This document shows positions 3 through 22,461 of a stretch of DNA of 32,865 bases, piece by piece (the first letter of the stretch is position 1; each line of letters begins with the position of its first letter). The stretch lies in the IMG/VR virus record IMGVR_UViG_3300033233_000118, positions 1 through 32,865 of that record; one strand, written 5' to 3'. A model generated the notes under the pieces. The model did not search any database. It saw only the letters and a program-made list of their open reading frames with translations, and was not told the origin of the DNA. This DNA comes from a virus. The translations under genes were made by a program, and so were the position numbers.

Positions 3-599
3 TCCGGCAAGATGACCGGACTCCCCGACTTCGGGGCGAAGGAGTTTGGTGAGTATGCGGCCAAGTATCGTGCCCAAGGCTTTGAAGTTCTTTCTCCTGT
101 TGAGTTGGATCGTGGCGACCATAGTGCTAGTTATTCTAGCTACATCCGCCGTGACGTTGCTCTTTTACTTAGCCCCGCCGTGGATCGGCTCTACCTTCTT
201 CCATCCTGGCGGGATTCCAAAGGTGCTAGGCTAGAAAAGCATCTTGCTGAGACTGTCGGGATGCCGGTGTACGATGCTAGTACCGGCGAGCTATACATCG
301 AGAACGTCGCAGACGAGGCCAAGCGGCTCGTCTTTGGTGATCGCCGGGAGAGCTACAACAATCCTTTGTCTGACTTTGGCCGCACCAAGGGTATTGTCAA
401 TGCGGTATTCAATCATAAACTCAAGGTAGATTTCACCGAAGAGGATGTCGCTTTATTTATGATTGCGGTCAAGCTTTCTCGTCTTACGAACAAGCCAGAC
501 CACCGGGACTCTCTTGTAGACATAATCGGTTATTCTCTTTGTTATGAATGGCTTACAGAGTTGCGCAGGGAGGCACGTAATGTCGCAGACCAGGGATAG
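3..599 (+). CDS. DUF4406 + DUF6378-type two-domain protein, 5' end outside window
   Basis: The reading frame is open to the window edge, and the codons before the first ATG (position 12) read Ser-Gly-Lys, so the sequence is SGK-MTGLPDFG. That matches the SGPMTGLP signature near the N-terminus of DUF4406 proteins (a nucleoside 2-deoxyribosyltransferase-like Rossmann fold), so the true start lies upstream. The first ~95 residues keep the family pattern (PVELD, then YIRRDVALL and LPSWRDSKGARLE). The second half, from about residue 100 (RRESYNNPLSDFGR, then FMIAVKLSRL and HRDSLVDIIGY), resembles DUF6378, a small helical domain common in phages. Both domains are usually linked to nucleotide metabolism or left unassigned, so the biochemical role is unproven. 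The next gene overlaps its end by 20 bases. Confidence 0.75.
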   Translation, partial: SGKMTGLPDFGAKEFGEYAAKYRAQGFEVLSPVELDRGDHSASYSSYIRRDVALLLSPAVDRLYLLPSWRDSKGARLEKHLAETVGMPVYDASTGELYIENVADEAKRLVFGDRRESYNNPLSDFGRTKGIVNAVFNHKLKVDFTEEDVALFMIAVKLSRLTNKPDHRDSLVDIIGYSLCYEWLTELRREARNVADQG

Positions 600-996: not shown

Positions 997-1414
997 GCTT
1001 CTTAAGAAAGAACTAGTCCGTGACGAGGGCATGCGTCTTGAATCCTACAAAGACAGTGTGGGGCTATGGACTATCGGAGTGGGCCATCTTCTCGGCCCCA
1101 CTCAGCGCATGACCATCATCACTCGGGATGAGGCATGGGCTTTGCTGGAGCACGACATTGACACCGCTCTCGATATTGCCTACTTTCTGGTAAAAAGATG
1201 GACGGACAGAGAGATATCATCTGCCCGGGGGCGCGCGTTGGCCAACATGTCATTCAACCTGGGCTCGGGCCGACTTGCGGGATTCAAGAAGTTCATCGCT
1301 GCTCTAAATGTCTATGACTGGCCGACAGCCGCGAAGGAAATGATGGACAGTCGTTGGGCGACCCAGGTGGGGGGACGTGCTGTGCGGCTGCGCGATATGA
1401 TCTTGAATGGTTAG
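977..1414 (+). CDS. Endolysin, T4-type lysozyme (glycoside hydrolase family 24)
   Basis: It cleaves the N-acetylmuramic acid to N-acetylglucosamine bond of peptidoglycan for host lysis. The N-terminus matches T4 lysozyme closely: Glu17, Asp26 and Thr32 (in RDEGMRLESYKD...GLWTIGVGH) have the same spacing as the T4 catalytic residues Glu11, Asp20 and Thr26. The C-terminal half keeps the ALANMSFNLG and SRWATQVGGRA segments of the family. At 145 residues it is close to the usual length of about 160. There is no signal peptide, so it should need a holin to reach the wall. The holin candidate lies on the opposite strand about 3 kb away. The ATG at 977 overlaps the preceding gene, and the stop overlaps the next start. 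Confidence 0.93.
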   Translation: MDQTNRELLKKELVRDEGMRLESYKDSVGLWTIGVGHLLGPTQRMTIITRDEAWALLEHDIDTALDIAYFLVKRWTDREISSARGRALANMSFNLGSGRLAGFKKFIAALNVYDWPTAAKEMMDSRWATQVGGRAVRLRDMILNG

Positions 1415-2387
1415 ACTCTCAGTTATTATCCCGTCAGCGGGCCGTCACACCCTAGAGAACACGGTCGAGTCCGCCCTCAGACAGTTGAACGATAGTGACG
1501 AACTCATTGTGGTGGGGAGCCGACGACCTCAGCAGTTCAAGTCAGATTATTCCAAGAACCAGGAACGGGTTTGCCGATTCGTTCACAGGGGCAATGGGGG
1601 CACACTCTCGAATCAGTTGAGTGTGCGGACAGGGAAAGAAGTTGGTCATCCTTCGGGTGCCGAGGAACGCGACCTCGGTGATGCAGTCGCAACCGGCACC
1701 CATCTGCTGCATTGTGATGACGATGACATATATACGAAGAACGCCTTTGGTGACATCCGGCGTGTGGTTGCCCTGAATCCTGAGTGTGTACATATTTTCC
1801 AAATGAAGTATGGGATGCAGCCCCAATGGGTAAGCCCGTACTCCGTGGACATTGACGGAGAGCCAACACTTGGAGTACATGAGGCGATCACGCTAGGCAA
1901 CTTCGGGGGGATGCAGATGGTATTCCCCCGAGTTACTCCTAACCCCCTGTGGAATGATGGTAGAAACATGGCAGAGGATTACTTTGTGACTAAGCGATAC
2001 CTCGAAGCCCTAGACACAGGCCTAATCTGGCCCCATATAACAATAGGGATCATCCGCCCTACGGCTGAACAGATCGCCGAACACACGGGACGAGAAGTTC
2101 AGCCGATCTATGCTCCACAGCCCTTTTGGGATGGCCGGGTAGATGCAAGGCGCAAACCAGAACGCCCCTATAGTCCTACTATGATGGCTGCACTTCGGCG
2201 GGTAATGAAGCAACCATCCCAGGGCAGGCCCCTATACGTCAATGTCTGTACGGAATGTGATTATGATTGGATGGCCCCCGAAAATATGCCCTCTAGATGC
2301 CCCAAATGCGGCCGCATCAGCCGTATAGAGATACTCTGTATTAACTCTGGCTTGCCGGGAGAAAAGGACCGTCGATATGAAGTATGA
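1407..2387 (+). CDS. GT-A fold (family 2-like) glycosyltransferase with C-terminal zinc ribbon
   Basis: The N-terminus RLSVIIPSAGR followed by ENTVESALRQ is the nucleotide-sugar binding start of a GT2-type enzyme. Four aspartates at residues 104-107 (HCDDDDIY) form the DxD metal and sugar-nucleotide site. A stretch near residues 185-195 (RNMAEDYFVTKRYLEA) may provide the catalytic acidic residue. The last ~45 residues hold Cys281, Cys284, Cys298 and Cys301 in two CxxC pairs typical of a zinc ribbon, which is unusual on this fold. Donor and acceptor cannot be read from the sequence. It overlaps the lysozyme gene by 8 bases and the FAD enzyme by 11 bases, so it belongs to one translationally coupled cassette with the next two genes. 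Confidence 0.82.
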   Translation: MVRLSVIIPSAGRHTLENTVESALRQLNDSDELIVVGSRRPQQFKSDYSKNQERVCRFVHRGNGGTLSNQLSVRTGKEVGHPSGAEERDLGDAVATGTHLLHCDDDDIYTKNAFGDIRRVVALNPECVHIFQMKYGMQPQWVSPYSVDIDGEPTLGVHEAITLGNFGGMQMVFPRVTPNPLWNDGRNMAEDYFVTKRYLEALDTGLIWPHITIGIIRPTAEQIAEHTGREVQPIYAPQPFWDGRVDARRKPERPYSPTMMAALRRVMKQPSQGRPLYVNVCTECDYDWMAPENMPSRCPKCGRISRIEILCINSGLPGEKDRRYEV

Positions 2388-3345
2388 TGCGGCAGTAATC
2401 GGTGGGGGAATTTATGGCTGCAAGGTAGCCTTGGCATTACGGAAAGCCGGAGTCAAGAAGGTGGTTCTTATTGAGCGCAATGCTAGGCTGATGCAGGAAG
2501 CATCCCGAGTGAATCAGTCCAGAATTCATCGCGGTTTTCACTACCCTCGTAGCCTTGAGACAGCCCGAGCAATGAACGCAAGCTTTGACCGCTTCTGTAT
2601 CGACCATTGGTACGCAATAACGCCAATGGAACAGATTTATGCCATCGCCGCTGAGGGCAGCAAAGTAACCCCCGGACAATTCGAGGAGTTCTGTGGTGAG
2701 GCCGGGCTACCAGTCAATCCGGTAAAGACTGGCCTGTTCAAGCCCGGCATGGTGGACTACGAGTATCTAGCACATGAGGCTGTAATTGACAGCAATCTGC
2801 TGGAGATGGCCTTTGTGGAGCAGCTTGCCATGGCAGGAGTGGAGGTAATCTACGGCAGAAAAGCCATTATTGAAGAGCTTGATGCAGATTGGATATTCGA
2901 TGTAACGTACTCCAACCTGAAATGCCGGACGCCTATTAAGCTAGGGCATTGTGAGATCGTGCTTATGCCTGAGCCTCCGATGCTTGAGGGCCGGGCCGTG
3001 TTGGTGCTGGATGGGCCATTTTGGAGTGCAGCCCCTTATCCTACCTCTGCCTGTTGGCAAATGACCCATGTGACAAAGATGCTACATGCCGATCAAGAGG
3101 CCAGCGATGGATCACATGCTGAGGCTATGCTGGCAGCGGCGGAGGAGTTCATTGAGGGGATAGGTAAGCCAGCCTGGCACCGAAGTATTTACATGACTAG
3201 GGCGGTGATTGACGATCCGGCCACGGATGCCCGGCCTAGCCTGTGGGAAGCTGATGAAGGCAATCCAAAGGTGATTCACATACTTGGTGGGAAGCTGAGT
3301 GGAATCTATTACATAGAGGAGAGAATATGGCAGATGTTCAAGTAG
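2377..3345 (+). CDS. FAD-dependent oxidoreductase (DAO-like)
   Basis: The protein starts with a clear dinucleotide-binding fold: YDAAVIGGGIYGCKVAL (GxGxxG at about residues 9-14) with the acidic end of strand 2 in VVLIERN. The following SRVNQSRIHRGFHYPRS resembles the flavin-contact region of D-amino-acid/glycerol-3-phosphate oxidase-like enzymes. Near the C-terminus, VIHILGGKLSGIYY is the usual second FAD-contacting Gly-rich stretch. The length (322 residues) is slightly short for the family. Related enzymes are found in surface polysaccharide clusters, which fits the glycosyltransferase before it and the epimerase-like gene after it. The substrate is unknown. It overlaps its neighbours by 11 and 19 bases. 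Confidence 0.8.
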   Translation: MKYDAAVIGGGIYGCKVALALRKAGVKKVVLIERNARLMQEASRVNQSRIHRGFHYPRSLETARAMNASFDRFCIDHWYAITPMEQIYAIAAEGSKVTPGQFEEFCGEAGLPVNPVKTGLFKPGMVDYEYLAHEAVIDSNLLEMAFVEQLAMAGVEVIYGRKAIIEELDADWIFDVTYSNLKCRTPIKLGHCEIVLMPEPPMLEGRAVLVLDGPFWSAAPYPTSACWQMTHVTKMLHADQEASDGSHAEAMLAAAEEFIEGIGKPAWHRSIYMTRAVIDDPATDARPSLWEADEGNPKVIHILGGKLSGIYYIEERIWQMFK

Positions 3346-4019
3346 GAAGACGAGCCCTTATAGGTTTTTCTGGATTCGTGGGGTCTTCGATTGATAGAAA
3401 AGAAAGGTTCACGGACCGTTTCAACTCCAAGAACATTGATACAATCCAAGGAGACTTTGATCTACTTGTCATAGCAGGAGCGCCCGGAACCAAGTGGAAG
3501 GCCAACGCCCGACCCGAGCATGACCAATTGGCCATACAACGACTGACCTCAAATCTCATACATTCGACCGCCAAACGCACTGTATTAATTTCGACGATTG
3601 ATGCCACCAGGGACCACGCCTACGGCCGCAATCGTAAGTTTCTGGAGGATTTTGTTCTGGAGGAATTCCCCAAGGCCGCTGTGATCCGGTTGCCCGCCCT
3701 ATTCGGTCCGGGACTCCGTAAAAATTCTCTTTATGATCTCATCTCGGGACGACCTACCAACGGCGGTATGTTCCACTGGTACGACATCAGGGAACTGTGG
3801 GGGGATATCGTCTTCGCAAAGCCGGGGATCAGTAGCCCAATGTCCGAAGCAGTCAGCATGCAGGAGATCGCAGATCGATTCTTCAATGGCGTGGCTTTGG
3901 GACCAGGGACACCGGACTACAACTACTCGGAATCCGGCCCCTTTACTATGACCCGTGAAGAAGCACTTAGACGCATTGGGATTTTCGTGGAGGAATATCG
4001 TGCCCTATATTCCAAATAA
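3327..4019 (+). CDS. NAD(P)-binding SDR / epimerase-like protein
   Basis: The N-terminus ALIGFSGFVGSSI carries GxxGxxG (Gly13, Gly16, Gly19), typical of extended short-chain dehydrogenases such as sugar-nucleotide epimerases. LLVIAGAPGTKW and TVLISTIDA correspond to strands 4 and 5 of the fold. HAYGRNRKFLEDFV is the YxxxK region, but the expected lysine position is Arg103, with Lys104 next to it, so activity may be altered. VIRLPALFGPGLRKN matches the substrate-side loop of epimerases. At 230 residues it is shorter than a full epimerase (about 300). Context suggests processing of a sugar or sugar nucleotide for the adjacent glycosyltransferase. The exact reaction cannot be assigned. Confidence 0.75.
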   Translation: MADVQVGRRALIGFSGFVGSSIDRKERFTDRFNSKNIDTIQGDFDLLVIAGAPGTKWKANARPEHDQLAIQRLTSNLIHSTAKRTVLISTIDATRDHAYGRNRKFLEDFVLEEFPKAAVIRLPALFGPGLRKNSLYDLISGRPTNGGMFHWYDIRELWGDIVFAKPGISSPMSEAVSMQEIADRFFNGVALGPGTPDYNYSESGPFTMTREEALRRIGIFVEEYRALYSK

Positions 4020-18381: not shown

Positions 18382-19638
18382 TTACCTCGTGGCAAGGGCT
18401 TCACGCCGTTGCTCCCGTTTAAGAGATTCGTAGAACTCGAACAGATCAATCACAGTTTTCTCGGCAGACCGATTAGTTCGGACCCAATCCCTCGCACGGC
18501 CTGCCAGTGTTAGGCGAAGCTCTTTCGATTTAATCAAAGCCCGAAGTTTCGTTGCGAAATCCTCGGGAGTGTCATAGAGGAGGCCAGTCTGCCCGTCCTC
18601 AATTTCCTTATAGGGTCCGATGTTAGCCGCCAGTGTTACCTCGGGCCGTGGTCCGATGCTCGCTTCATAAAACCTAATGGCGCTCTTGCACTGATTGAAT
18701 GGCGAATCTACCAGCGGGGCGAGATTGATGTCCCCATCGAGACAGGCCCGTGTGATCTGATAGGCTGAATAGTCCAGCCAGTTGTGGTGCTCCAATTGTT
18801 CTGGTTTGATGTGTTTCACCATCCATGTAAATTGCGCCCCGAATGTCACTAATTTAATATGAGGATTTTCTTTTAGGACTTCAATAAGTGCTTTGGCAAC
18901 AGGTAGCCAGGATTCTAAATGGCTTGTGCTTCCTTCCCATACCAAACGGATGCCCTCATGGGGTGCTAAGTTTGGGAAGAAATGATCGGATTCAAGGACA
19001 CTATTGGGGAATACATAGACATTTTTGCAGCCCTGTTCCCGATATATCTTGGCAAGATTCTCGGTTGTTACCGAAACGCCCCTCGCGGCTCTTGCCATAT
19101 CGAAATGCCGCCCAATCATGGCGAAGTTTCGTTCGATATCAAATACTTCATCATTTTGACCACAGGTCTGCTTGTCTACCCATAGGGGCCGCATCGTTCC
19201 GTCGGGGGCAGGCCAGGTCAAGGAGTCACCCGGCGTTAAAAACTCTCCGGCGAAGTTACGTATTCCGAAGTGGGAAAAGCTCTCATTTAGAGGATGGACA
19301 TATTCTATAGCATCGTCCATATCGAAGACGAAGGCGGGTGGGATGCGTAGGATACCATCGACCACACGGCTTTTCATGTCACCGATCTCATTTATGATGC
19401 CTGTTCCAACCTGGCCTTGAAGATGCCAAGCTAGCATGATGTCTGAACCATACATCATTTGGGTGGCCTCTTCGCGGTCGTCTTTTCCACCATCTATGTA
19501 GATTTGGGAAAGACCCAACTTATGAAGGGCTTTTAATGGTACTTGAATACGATAATAAGCCTGTGCTGAGGACTTAGCAAAGTTATGAAAACCGTATGTG
19601 CCGAATGAATCGCCGATTGCTTTGTCCACTACCGCCAA
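18382..19638 (-). CDS. GT4-type (GT-B fold) glycosyltransferase
   Basis: The C-terminal half has the GT-B donor-site pattern: IRLVWEGSTSHLESW, then IKLVTFGAQF, then CKSAIRFYEASIGPRPEVTLAANIGPYKEIEDGQTGLLYDTPEDFATKL, which matches the conserved KxxxxYEA...PVIAs..PY.e.I.dg.tGll signature of family 4. The N-terminal half contains YYRIQVPLKALHKLG and FDMDDAIEYV, typical of acceptor-side domains. It lies inside the virion-protein operon, which suggests a target on the phage particle or host surface. Substrate unknown. The annotated TTG start has poor spacing to its ribosome site; a GTG three codons later (19629), nine bases after AAAGG, may be the real start. Confidence 0.78.
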   Translation of the reverse strand: MAVVDKAIGDSFGTYGFHNFAKSSAQAYYRIQVPLKALHKLGLSQIYIDGGKDDREEATQMMYGSDIMLAWHLQGQVGTGIINEIGDMKSRVVDGILRIPPAFVFDMDDAIEYVHPLNESFSHFGIRNFAGEFLTPGDSLTWPAPDGTMRPLWVDKQTCGQNDEVFDIERNFAMIGRHFDMARAARGVSVTTENLAKIYREQGCKNVYVFPNSVLESDHFFPNLAPHEGIRLVWEGSTSHLESWLPVAKALIEVLKENPHIKLVTFGAQFTWMVKHIKPEQLEHHNWLDYSAYQITRACLDGDINLAPLVDSPFNQCKSAIRFYEASIGPRPEVTLAANIGPYKEIEDGQTGLLYDTPEDFATKLRALIKSKELRLTLAGRARDWVRTNRSAEKTVIDLFEFYESLKREQRREALATR

Positions 19639-20263: not shown

Positions 20264-20488
20264 TTACTTTCCCATTTCGGGCCAGAGTGCCCCGCCCTTA
20301 GTCGTTCCGGTGTTGTTGGTTGTAGGGGCATTTGTAGCTACGGTCTTGAGAACTGGTTCGGGGGTACGATTGTCCGCACCATTCCCAGGGGGGCCGATTG
20401 CTGGCATTGCCACTTCTGGCGTTGTCATTGCCGGGTTGATCTCACGGCCTACGCCGTCCGGGAACCCATCATTCCATTCTACTGCCAT
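20264..20488 (-). CDS. Hypothetical Pro/Thr-rich small protein
   Basis: A 74-residue protein of low complexity (TTPEVAMPAIGPPGNG, TVATNAPTTNNTGTT), probably disordered. Its ATG has a good GGAGAAAG site, which lies inside the 3' end of the upstream endonuclease gene; the two overlap by 20 bases. This tight packing suggests the endonuclease gene was inserted next to, or has grown into, the leader of this gene. Confidence 0.5.
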   Translation of the reverse strand: MAVEWNDGFPDGVGREINPAMTTPEVAMPAIGPPGNGADNRTPEPVLKTVATNAPTTNNTGTTKGGALWPEMGK

Positions 20489-20831
20489 GATTCACTTTCT
20501 CCATTGCCGCTAAAAACTGACGGCGTTTGACCGGCCCGAGATAGGGCCATAGATACTGCATGATAAGACAAACGTCACTTCGATCACCAGTATACCATCT
20601 TTGACATTTTTGATGATTAGGACGATTATCTGTTACAAAACAGATATGTCCTAAGTTACCAACTGCTGATTGGAATCTAATAAGTAACTCACGAGCAAAT
20701 TCACCGGCCTGAGTTACACTTATTTTTAATTGTCCTTTTCCTCTAGGAAGTTGGCATCGAAGTTGAAAAGTTGTGCTTCCTTCGCCGTCGAAGAATCCTG
20801 CTGCCCACGCTTTTTCTGTTTCTGTTGCCAT
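20469..20831 (-). CDS. Free-standing LAGLIDADG homing endonuclease
   Basis: A 120-residue protein with one LAGLIDADG motif at residues ~9-18 (WAAGFFDGEG) followed by the typical beta strands (LKISVTQ) and a C-terminal helix (LGPVKRRQFLAAMEK). One motif per chain implies a homodimer that makes a double-strand cut in a long asymmetric site. I placed the start at the ATG at 20831, which has GAGGG upstream; an in-frame ATG 15 bases earlier has none. It lies just downstream of the major capsid gene and shows no intron core around it, so it appears free-standing. It is related in architecture to the endonuclease inside the capsid-gene intron. Confidence 0.85.
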   Translation of the reverse strand: MATETEKAWAAGFFDGEGSTTFQLRCQLPRGKGQLKISVTQAGEFARELLIRFQSAVGNLGHICFVTDNRPNHQKCQRWYTGDRSDVCLIMQYLWPYLGPVKRRQFLAAMEKVNHGSRME

Positions 20832-20857
20832 GATCTTATCCCTCATGTTGTGTGGTA

Positions 20858-20924: not shown

Positions 20925-21757
20925 CTACGTGACCGAGCTCTTGTTGTTCACACCACTGAACATCCCAAGGGCTTTTTCGTTAGCTACTTCAAGGGTTAGC
21001 TCAGCACGAACTTGTCCGGCAGTCGAATCACCCTTAGTTCCCATAAGTCGGTGAGCCAATGGGCGGAACCAGGCAATCCTGACCTTAGCCCGCTCAAGGA
21101 ACCAGATGCGTCCCGAGATGTCAGTCGCGTTCGCAGACGCGGAAGCCGTGTTGGCCGAAGTCGGCGAGTGACGGTTCAACTGGATCGGCATGAGGCCGAA
21201 ATCCGAGTCGTACACATCAACACCAACAATGACCTTCTTGTCAGCCGCCAGAACGTTCCGGGTGTTAGAGGTAGTCAGCGCGCTGAACTGGCGCTTGTAG
21301 GCACCGTCCATAACGATGAGGTCTGTCTTTCCACCCAAATCCCACACGTCGTTCAAGATGCTATTAACATCATTCGCATTGAAGACGCCTGCGTGGGTAG
21401 CATCACCCACGAGGCCGGTGTAGCTAGCGCCCGTGTACTTGGTCGTGGTAATGAAATCCTCAAGGGTCTTCATCACACGAGCCGTGCCGGAAGCGCCGGT
21501 TGTGGCCGTTCCAGATGCCATGAGAGCGACTTCGATGTCGATCATCACGGACTTTGTTTCTTTCTCCAGTTGGTACGTATAGGCATCACCGAAACCAACT
21601 GGATTTTCTGCCCTTTCAGACTCCGTGACCGCAATGTCACCACCGAAGATTTCGGTCTGATTCAGCAAGCGGGAAGGAGCGACCAGTGTTTGCACACTGA
21701 AATCCAAACCTTCTACGATGCCGCGTGAATTGCGTGCACGAAGTACATCCTTCTGCC
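20925..21757 (-). CDS. Major capsid protein, exon 2 (SU10-type, DUF5309-like)
   Basis: This is the main part of the capsid gene. It has no start codon of its own with a ribosome site: the frame is open back to 21757, with a stop only inside the intron. Joined to exon 1 at 22293, the junction reads HQ-W-QKDVLRARNSRGIVEG and gives a 333-residue protein, normal for the family. Sequences such as LNQTEIFGGDIAVTESERA, YQLEKETKSVMIDIEVALM and VNSILNDVWDLGGKTDLIVM match the DUF5309 / SU10 major capsid pattern (NYTQI-f...V..T; i.keimrdiE.all; vg...k..i). It forms the icosahedral shell. It follows the scaffold candidate, as in most capsid modules. Confidence 0.9.
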
Positions 21758-22292
21758 CTTATTTGGACTCTATCTTGCTTGATTTAATGCTTGAAGTTGC
21801 TGTATGGCCCGAGCAATCCGAGTTTTATCCGCTTTTCTTTCAATCATGGATCGGATTGACATAGCCTTATATAACTGTTTACGTTTGATCCTGAGAAATG
21901 GGATCATTAACTTAAGAAAAGGAGTGATGCTTTTTGAAGGCACCATCCACTTTTCAACCCTACGACCTCTAGGATTACAGTTCCAGTTGACGTAACCACC
22001 ACCGTAGGTTTCTTTAAGCCAAGCAATCATCTCTTTATTCGATCCAGAAATGAACACTTGAACATAATGTCCTGAACCAGTGATGCATCCTTCGCCATCT
22101 AGTAATCCTGCTGTATAAGCCAAGATTCGTACCGCAAACTTCTTATCAAGCTGCAACGTATTAGTCTCTGAGGATTCCATGTTTGGCCTTTCCTGCTGAT
22201 TGGGCGCTGTCACTCATTTTAACCTAGAAGGTAGAGGGACTCAAGCCGTTCCAGCATTTGGTTGCATTTTACATCAGCAGTAGAAGGTGTCT
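21758..22292 (-). ncRNA. Group I self-splicing intron in the major capsid gene
   Basis: All positions are on the minus strand. P1: exon end CATCAGT (22299-22293) pairs with the guide GCTGATG (22278-22272), with the expected U-G wobble at the 5' splice site. P3: TGCAAC (22266-22261) with GTTGCA (22157-22152). P4: TGCTG (22256-22252) with CAGCA (22198-22194), in element P- and Q-like contexts. P7: element R-like CAGAGACTA (22170-22162) with element S-like AAGATAGAGTCC (21776-21765). P8: GCTTGAT (22151-22145) with ATCAAGC (21783-21777). The intron ends in G (21758). The element order and adjacency match a group I core. It removes itself by two guanosine-initiated transesterifications. Subgroup not determined. 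Confidence 0.92.
21770..22180 (-). CDS. Intron-encoded LAGLIDADG homing endonuclease
   Basis: A 136-residue protein with one LAGLIDADG motif at residues ~21-31 (AYTAGLLDGEG), a following beta region (GHYVQVFISGSNKEMIAWLKETYGG) and a basic C-terminal helix region (LRIKRKQLYKAMSIRSM). It should dimerise and cut intron-less capsid alleles near the insertion site so that repair copies the intron; some relatives also help splicing. I prefer the ATG at 22180 (AGGAAAGG upstream) over the GTG at 22213. Codons near the start contain the R element and the P3 and P8 strands, and the stop TAG (21772-21770) lies inside element S, so the gene fills the P8 loop and shares bases with the ribozyme at both ends. 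Confidence 0.88.
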   Translation of the reverse strand: MESSETNTLQLDKKFAVRILAYTAGLLDGEGCITGSGHYVQVFISGSNKEMIAWLKETYGGGYVNWNCNPRGRRVEKWMVPSKSITPFLKLMIPFLRIKRKQLYKAMSIRSMIERKADKTRIARAIQQLQALNQAR

Positions 22293-22461
22293 ACTGATGG
22301 ATCGTTGACCTGGCAGTTGTCTTGCCAAGCAACACCGTCAATGGTGTCTCCGTCGGGTCGATGTTGGCGATAAAATCCACCAAATCTTCCTTGTTGGAGC
22401 TAGTATGCGTGTACGAATCGTAAAGATAGGTACCCGCGTTTCCTGCGGCTAAAGACGGCAT
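22293..22461 (-). CDS. Major capsid protein, exon 1 (N-terminal 56 codons)
   Basis: ATG at 22461 opens a frame reading MPSLAAGNAGTYLYDSYT, then DLVDFIANIDPTETPLTVLLGK, then TTARSTIHQ, followed by an in-frame TAG at 22293-22291. The segment DFIANIDPTETPL is the conserved N-terminal (I-A-N-I-x-P-T-x-T-P) signature of the SU10-type capsid family, which is absent from the downstream frame. The stop is created by the intron: the last exon base is T22293 and splicing to G21757 turns it into TGG (Trp57). It lies directly downstream of the scaffold candidate. Exon length is 169 bases. The ribosome site upstream (AAGGGAAAT) is moderate. Confidence 0.9.

Follow-up and report, generated by a model that had tools for sequence, protein, structure and literature searches.

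In this SU10-like phage a mobile group I intron, which would be spliced from the capsid mRNA, very probably interrupts the major capsid gene. The window is the whole of IMG/VR record IMGVR_UViG_3300033233_000118 (32,865 nt), which comes from an uncultured virus of bacteria. The parts of the gene are:

22293..22461, minus strand: exon 1 of the major capsid gene (codons 1-56 and the first base of codon 57), matching PF17236 positions 4-45
21758..22292, minus strand: group I intron, 535 nt, within the W57 codon
20925..21757, minus strand: exon 2 of the major capsid gene (rest of codon 57 to the stop), matching PF17236 positions 45-291

The frame that begins at ATG 22461 is open for 56 codons and meets TAG as codon 57, which is made of the last T of exon 1 and the intron bases AG. 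Joining 22293 to 21757 removes 535 nt and restores a single frame of 333 aa that runs through STIHQ-W-QKDVL. The Pfam profile SU10_MCP (PF17236, cut-off 24.1 bits) matches both exons, with 27.9 bits for exon 1 and 157 bits for exon 2. Because the two pieces abut at profile position 45, the profile is continuous over the break, and the break is placed by the protein family itself. The predicted 333-aa product is a SU10-type major capsid protein, and a gene for a SU10-type portal protein lies upstream of it. The exon and intron limits and the 333-residue join given in the first-pass annotation are right to the base, in agreement with the empty sites described below and with the Pfam split, and the comparison with SU10-type capsid proteins that it proposed is borne out over both exons. 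It had also described the downstream frame as lacking a start; an in-frame TTG is present at 21707, which would give a product of 260 aa with approximately 73 conserved residues absent. A Pfam profile search of the 32,865-nt record found no further PF17236 gene. A second capsid gene outside the 32.9-kb record is conceivable, since this record may be a fragment.

Uninterrupted relatives of the capsid gene are present in six IMG/VR contigs (73-81% identity in the best segments). All six have CA(T/C)CAGTGGCAG at the exact position of the exon join, and the longer reading where the exons meet, CA(T/C)CAGTGGCAGA, is also found in 6/6. The sequence of the empty, intronless site is CATCAGTGGCAG. Trp57, the residue whose codon is split, is invariant in 12 of 12 aligned capsid proteins down to about 30% identity (including those of Pelagibacter phage HTVC106P, Pseudomonas phage tf, Cronobacter phage Ss1, and Bradyrhizobium phage ppBeUSDA76-2). 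Both exons differ from their relatives mainly at third codon positions, which is the pattern of a working gene. GC content is 42% in the intron and 50% and 54% in the exons. No relatives of the capsid protein were found in bacterial genomes. Three related phages have capsid entries that seemed split or doubled, but none of these reflects an intron: they are ordinary genes or come from a frameshift.

The splice sites are marked by two pairings with one continuous guide at the 5' end of the intron:

22272..22278, minus strand: internal guide GCUGAUG, the 3' strand of P1; its partner is CAUCAGU (22299-22293), with a U-G wobble at the 5' splice site
22279..22287, minus strand: P10 guide CCUUCUACU; its partner is GGCAGAAGG, the first bases of exon 2 (21757-21749), with 8/9 pairs

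The first-pass annotation had proposed that the guide pairs with the seven last exon bases, U-G wobble included, and 7/7 were indeed found paired. The P10 pairing with exon 2 was absent from that annotation. Over its full length, CCUUCUACU-GCUGAUG, the guide forms pairs with 15 of the 16 bases of the exon junction CAUCAGU-GGCAGAAGG, and among the 986 16-mers of the spliced coding sequence the junction alone reaches 15 pairs with the intron 5' end. A combined P1 and P10 descriptor was found in none of 600 shuffles and in none of 658 other segments of the window. The intron ends in ...AAAUAAG and is followed by GGCAG, and the position of the terminal G is fixed by the six empty-site alleles.

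Core helices of a group I ribozyme can be read between these sites:

22261..22266, minus strand: P3 5' strand UGCAAC (unconstrained fold)
22152..22157, minus strand: P3 3' strand GUUGCA (unconstrained fold)
22251..22256, minus strand: P4 5' strand UGCUGG (Rfam alignment and fold)
22194..22199, minus strand: P4 3' strand UCAGCA (Rfam alignment and fold)
22163..22168, minus strand: P7 5' strand G(A)GACU, within the motif CAGAGACUA (Rfam alignment and sequence reading)
22145..22151, minus strand: P8 5' strand GCUUGAU (fold)
21777..21783, minus strand: P8 3' strand AUCAAGC (fold)
21765..21776, minus strand: J8/7 AAGAUAG, then the P7 3' strand AGUCC (sequence reading)

Folding the whole intron without constraints recovered P1, P3, P4, P5, P6, and P8 together, and the P4-P6 and P3-P8 domains stand in canonical order. 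The P7 pseudoknot (G(A)GACU with AGUCC, with a bulged A) and J8/7, which directly follows P8, were read from the sequence with the classical J8/7-P7 motif as the standard of comparison; so short a P7 pairing is by itself a weak criterion. A descriptor of the P3/P4/P7/P8 core alone was found in 5 of 600 shuffles (about 1% by chance), so the core helices are supporting rather than decisive. The folding energy of the intron is ordinary (z -0.97). The Rfam search suggested in the first-pass annotation gave a divided answer. Intron_gpI (RF00028) matches the correct strand starting at P1 in a permissive search of 651 nt, with a score of 22.8 bits (E 0.0015) that is below the gathering score of 50, and the intron is not returned by a search at the gathering score. 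The RF00028 alignment places the 3' half of the intron wrongly, inside the endonuclease ORF, an error to be expected where a loop is occupied by an ORF.

No P9 or P9.0 helix is visible between P7 and the 3' splice site, where the 7 nt that are left (AAAUAAG) allow no P9. P9 is common in group I introns and is treated here as peripheral rather than defining, and the long P10 may make up for its absence. A bolder proposal, which we consider rather unlikely, is a group I ribozyme that has no P9/P9.0 and relies on its exceptionally long P10 to define the 3' splice site; the greater part of its 3' core would also code for the endonuclease, which might help in splicing too. Neither protein similarity, DNA similarity, nor two DNA patterns found a second copy of the intron in IMG/VR and phage records, and the core helices are accordingly those of one intron sequence.

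The intron carries an ORF that the first-pass annotation did not mention:

21770..22180, minus strand: LAGLIDADG homing endonuclease ORF, 136 aa, from ATG 22180, overlapping P6, P7, P3, and P8 and ending with its stop in J8/7

This ORF fills P8 and would encode 147 aa if started at GTG 22213. One LAGLIDADG motif (AGLLDGEG) is present in its product, with a PFLRIKRKQ block behind it. The product matches PHROG 5046 (E 3.7e-14), I-MsoI in the PDB (E 2.3e-7), and also I-CreI, and Pfam LAGLIDADG_3 matches it with 16.4 bits, below the cut-off. An AlphaFold model built from three sequences is of low confidence (pLDDT 58), and the best 31 fold matches of this low-confidence model are all I-CreI, I-MsoI, I-CvuI, or an I-DmoI/I-CreI chimaera. 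By motif and homology, the predicted endonuclease is of the single-motif LAGLIDADG type, like I-CreI and I-MsoI, and it is probably homodimeric. The PFLRIKRKQ block resembles PFLKLKQKQ of I-CreI, with the same fold in the low-confidence model, and the sequence is only distantly related to I-CreI, I-MsoI, and I-CvuI. PHROG 5046 is labelled “HNH endonuclease”, a label copied in several phage records; the motif and fold are those of LAGLIDADG proteins. Because the ORF extends over core strands and stops within J8/7, a single RNA should be unable to fold as a ribozyme while it is being translated into endonuclease.

A second LAGLIDADG-like ORF, also absent from the first-pass annotation, lies immediately downstream of the capsid gene, before the next gene:

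20469..20846, minus strand: free-standing LAGLIDADG-like ORF, 125 aa, PHROG 5046

The two ORFs share PHROG 5046 and a GC content of 42% each, and pairwise BLASTP of their proteins gave no alignment. No group I signal was found around the 20469-20846 ORF. Its start context (GATCATGGCA) resembles that of the next gene (AATCATGGCAGTAGAA, about 20488), and it looks from the sequence as if it had been inserted at the start of that gene. Two relatives of the endonuclease were considered as intron ORFs and rejected: that in record L005 sits between two open frames with no group I signal, and that of Stenotrophomonas phage StenR_269 (record L015) precedes a capsid gene of another family, also with no group I signal. 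The StenR_269 ORF (L015:2460-2999) is a LAGLIDADG ORF annotated as “intron homing endonuclease” and lies directly before the capsid gene, and a stretch resembling the capsid gene's own start is repeated ahead of it. Given the lack of a group I signal there, it is probably a free-standing insertion. Elsewhere in the window, 12-599 (plus strand) encodes a single 195-aa protein combining DUF4406 and DUF6378 domains; an overlapping cluster at the left end (1407-4019, plus strand) consists of a glycosyltransferase-like gene, an FAD-dependent oxidoreductase gene, and one further gene; and a glycosyltransferase-like gene within the head-tail region (18382-19638, minus strand) is also present in record L001.

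Other explanations of the interrupted gene were weighed. The intron could be decayed, with a ribozyme that lacks P9 and no longer splices, and with the gene dead or another capsid gene in use. The Rfam score below gathering and the absent P9 point that way, but the exons keep their frame, their conserved residues, and a third-position bias relative to their relatives, the splice-site pairings are all intact, the endonuclease frame is still open, and the record holds no other PF17236 gene, so we judge decay to be improbable. Still less probable is an assembly chimaera, with the capsid gene of a metagenome contig wrongly fused to an unrelated fragment that bears an endonuclease ORF. The source is a virus record of the IMG/VR type, and searches of the collections turned up nothing close to the insert; such a chimaera, however, would carry neither a guide pairing with both exons at 15/16 bases nor a perfect in-frame join.

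Inteins and ribosomal bypassing both occur in phages, and either could in principle bridge the insert, but nothing specific to this gene speaks for them. An intein requires an open frame through the insert, which here has TAG at the junction and further stops, and bypassing does not predict the P1/P10 pairing, the terminal G, or the P3-P8 core; this explanation is the least probable of all.

We thus favor the view that a group I intron is removed from the capsid pre-mRNA. It would fold into a ribozyme whose guide holds exon 1 (P1) and exon 2 (P10). Exogenous guanosine would cut after CAUCAGU, and the freed U would attack after the terminal G of the intron, so that exon ligation would make the Trp57 codon whole again and yield the 333-aa protein. 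A ribosome translating exon 1 is probably halted by the UAG that straddles the 5' splice site, before it can disturb the core. The endonuclease is probably translated from AUG 22180, behind the Shine-Dalgarno-like AGGAAAGG at P6, and its targets would be capsid genes without the intron, cut at the conserved HQWQ codons; repair would then copy the intron in.

Introns in phage capsid genes have precedents. In mycobacteriophage LittleE (cluster J), splicing of a major capsid gene intron was demonstrated by RT-PCR and N-terminal protein sequencing (PMC3706429, PMC11855218). The present intron shares with that of LittleE its group I type, its place in a major capsid gene, the U that ends the upstream exon, the G that ends the intron, and an ORF for an I-CreI-related LAGLIDADG protein. 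The LittleE intron is larger (approximately 820 bp, compared to 535 nt), it interrupts an HK97-type capsid gene of a siphovirus with a high-GC Gram-positive host rather than a SU10-type gene, and the endonuclease ORF in it runs antisense to the capsid gene, whereas the present ORF is on the sense strand and overlaps the core. Lactococcal phage Tuc2009 also has a group I intron in a structural gene, the capsid gene, as cited in PMC3706429, and is set beside the present case by that citation only. The remark in the first-pass annotation that capsid-gene introns are less common is therefore correct and not new, as far as these precedents are described in PMC3706429; a capsid-gene intron is already a known kind. 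No report of an intron in a SU10-type capsid gene was found in the literature searched, which does not prove absence. Such introns are known to have ORFs that extend into the core, as well as in-frame stops that arrest ribosomes (review PMC3984707). The present intron is similar in having an ORF that runs through core strands and an in-frame stop at or near its start, but it differs in that nearly the entire 3' half of the core is coding and P9 is not seen.

With base-exact junctions and six empty sites, this makes a clear example of predicted dependence on RNA splicing in a phage head gene. It fits the common pattern in which a mobile intron enters at an invariant codon, where the target stays conserved. 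The absent P9 makes this small ribozyme of interest. Gene callers would report a truncated capsid protein of 260 aa and lose exon 1, and Rfam at its default threshold overlooks the intron; counts of such genes in viromes are therefore probably too low. Because its capsid gene is interrupted by the intron, the virus would have to splice RNA to build its shell, and we infer that virion assembly depends on the ribozyme.
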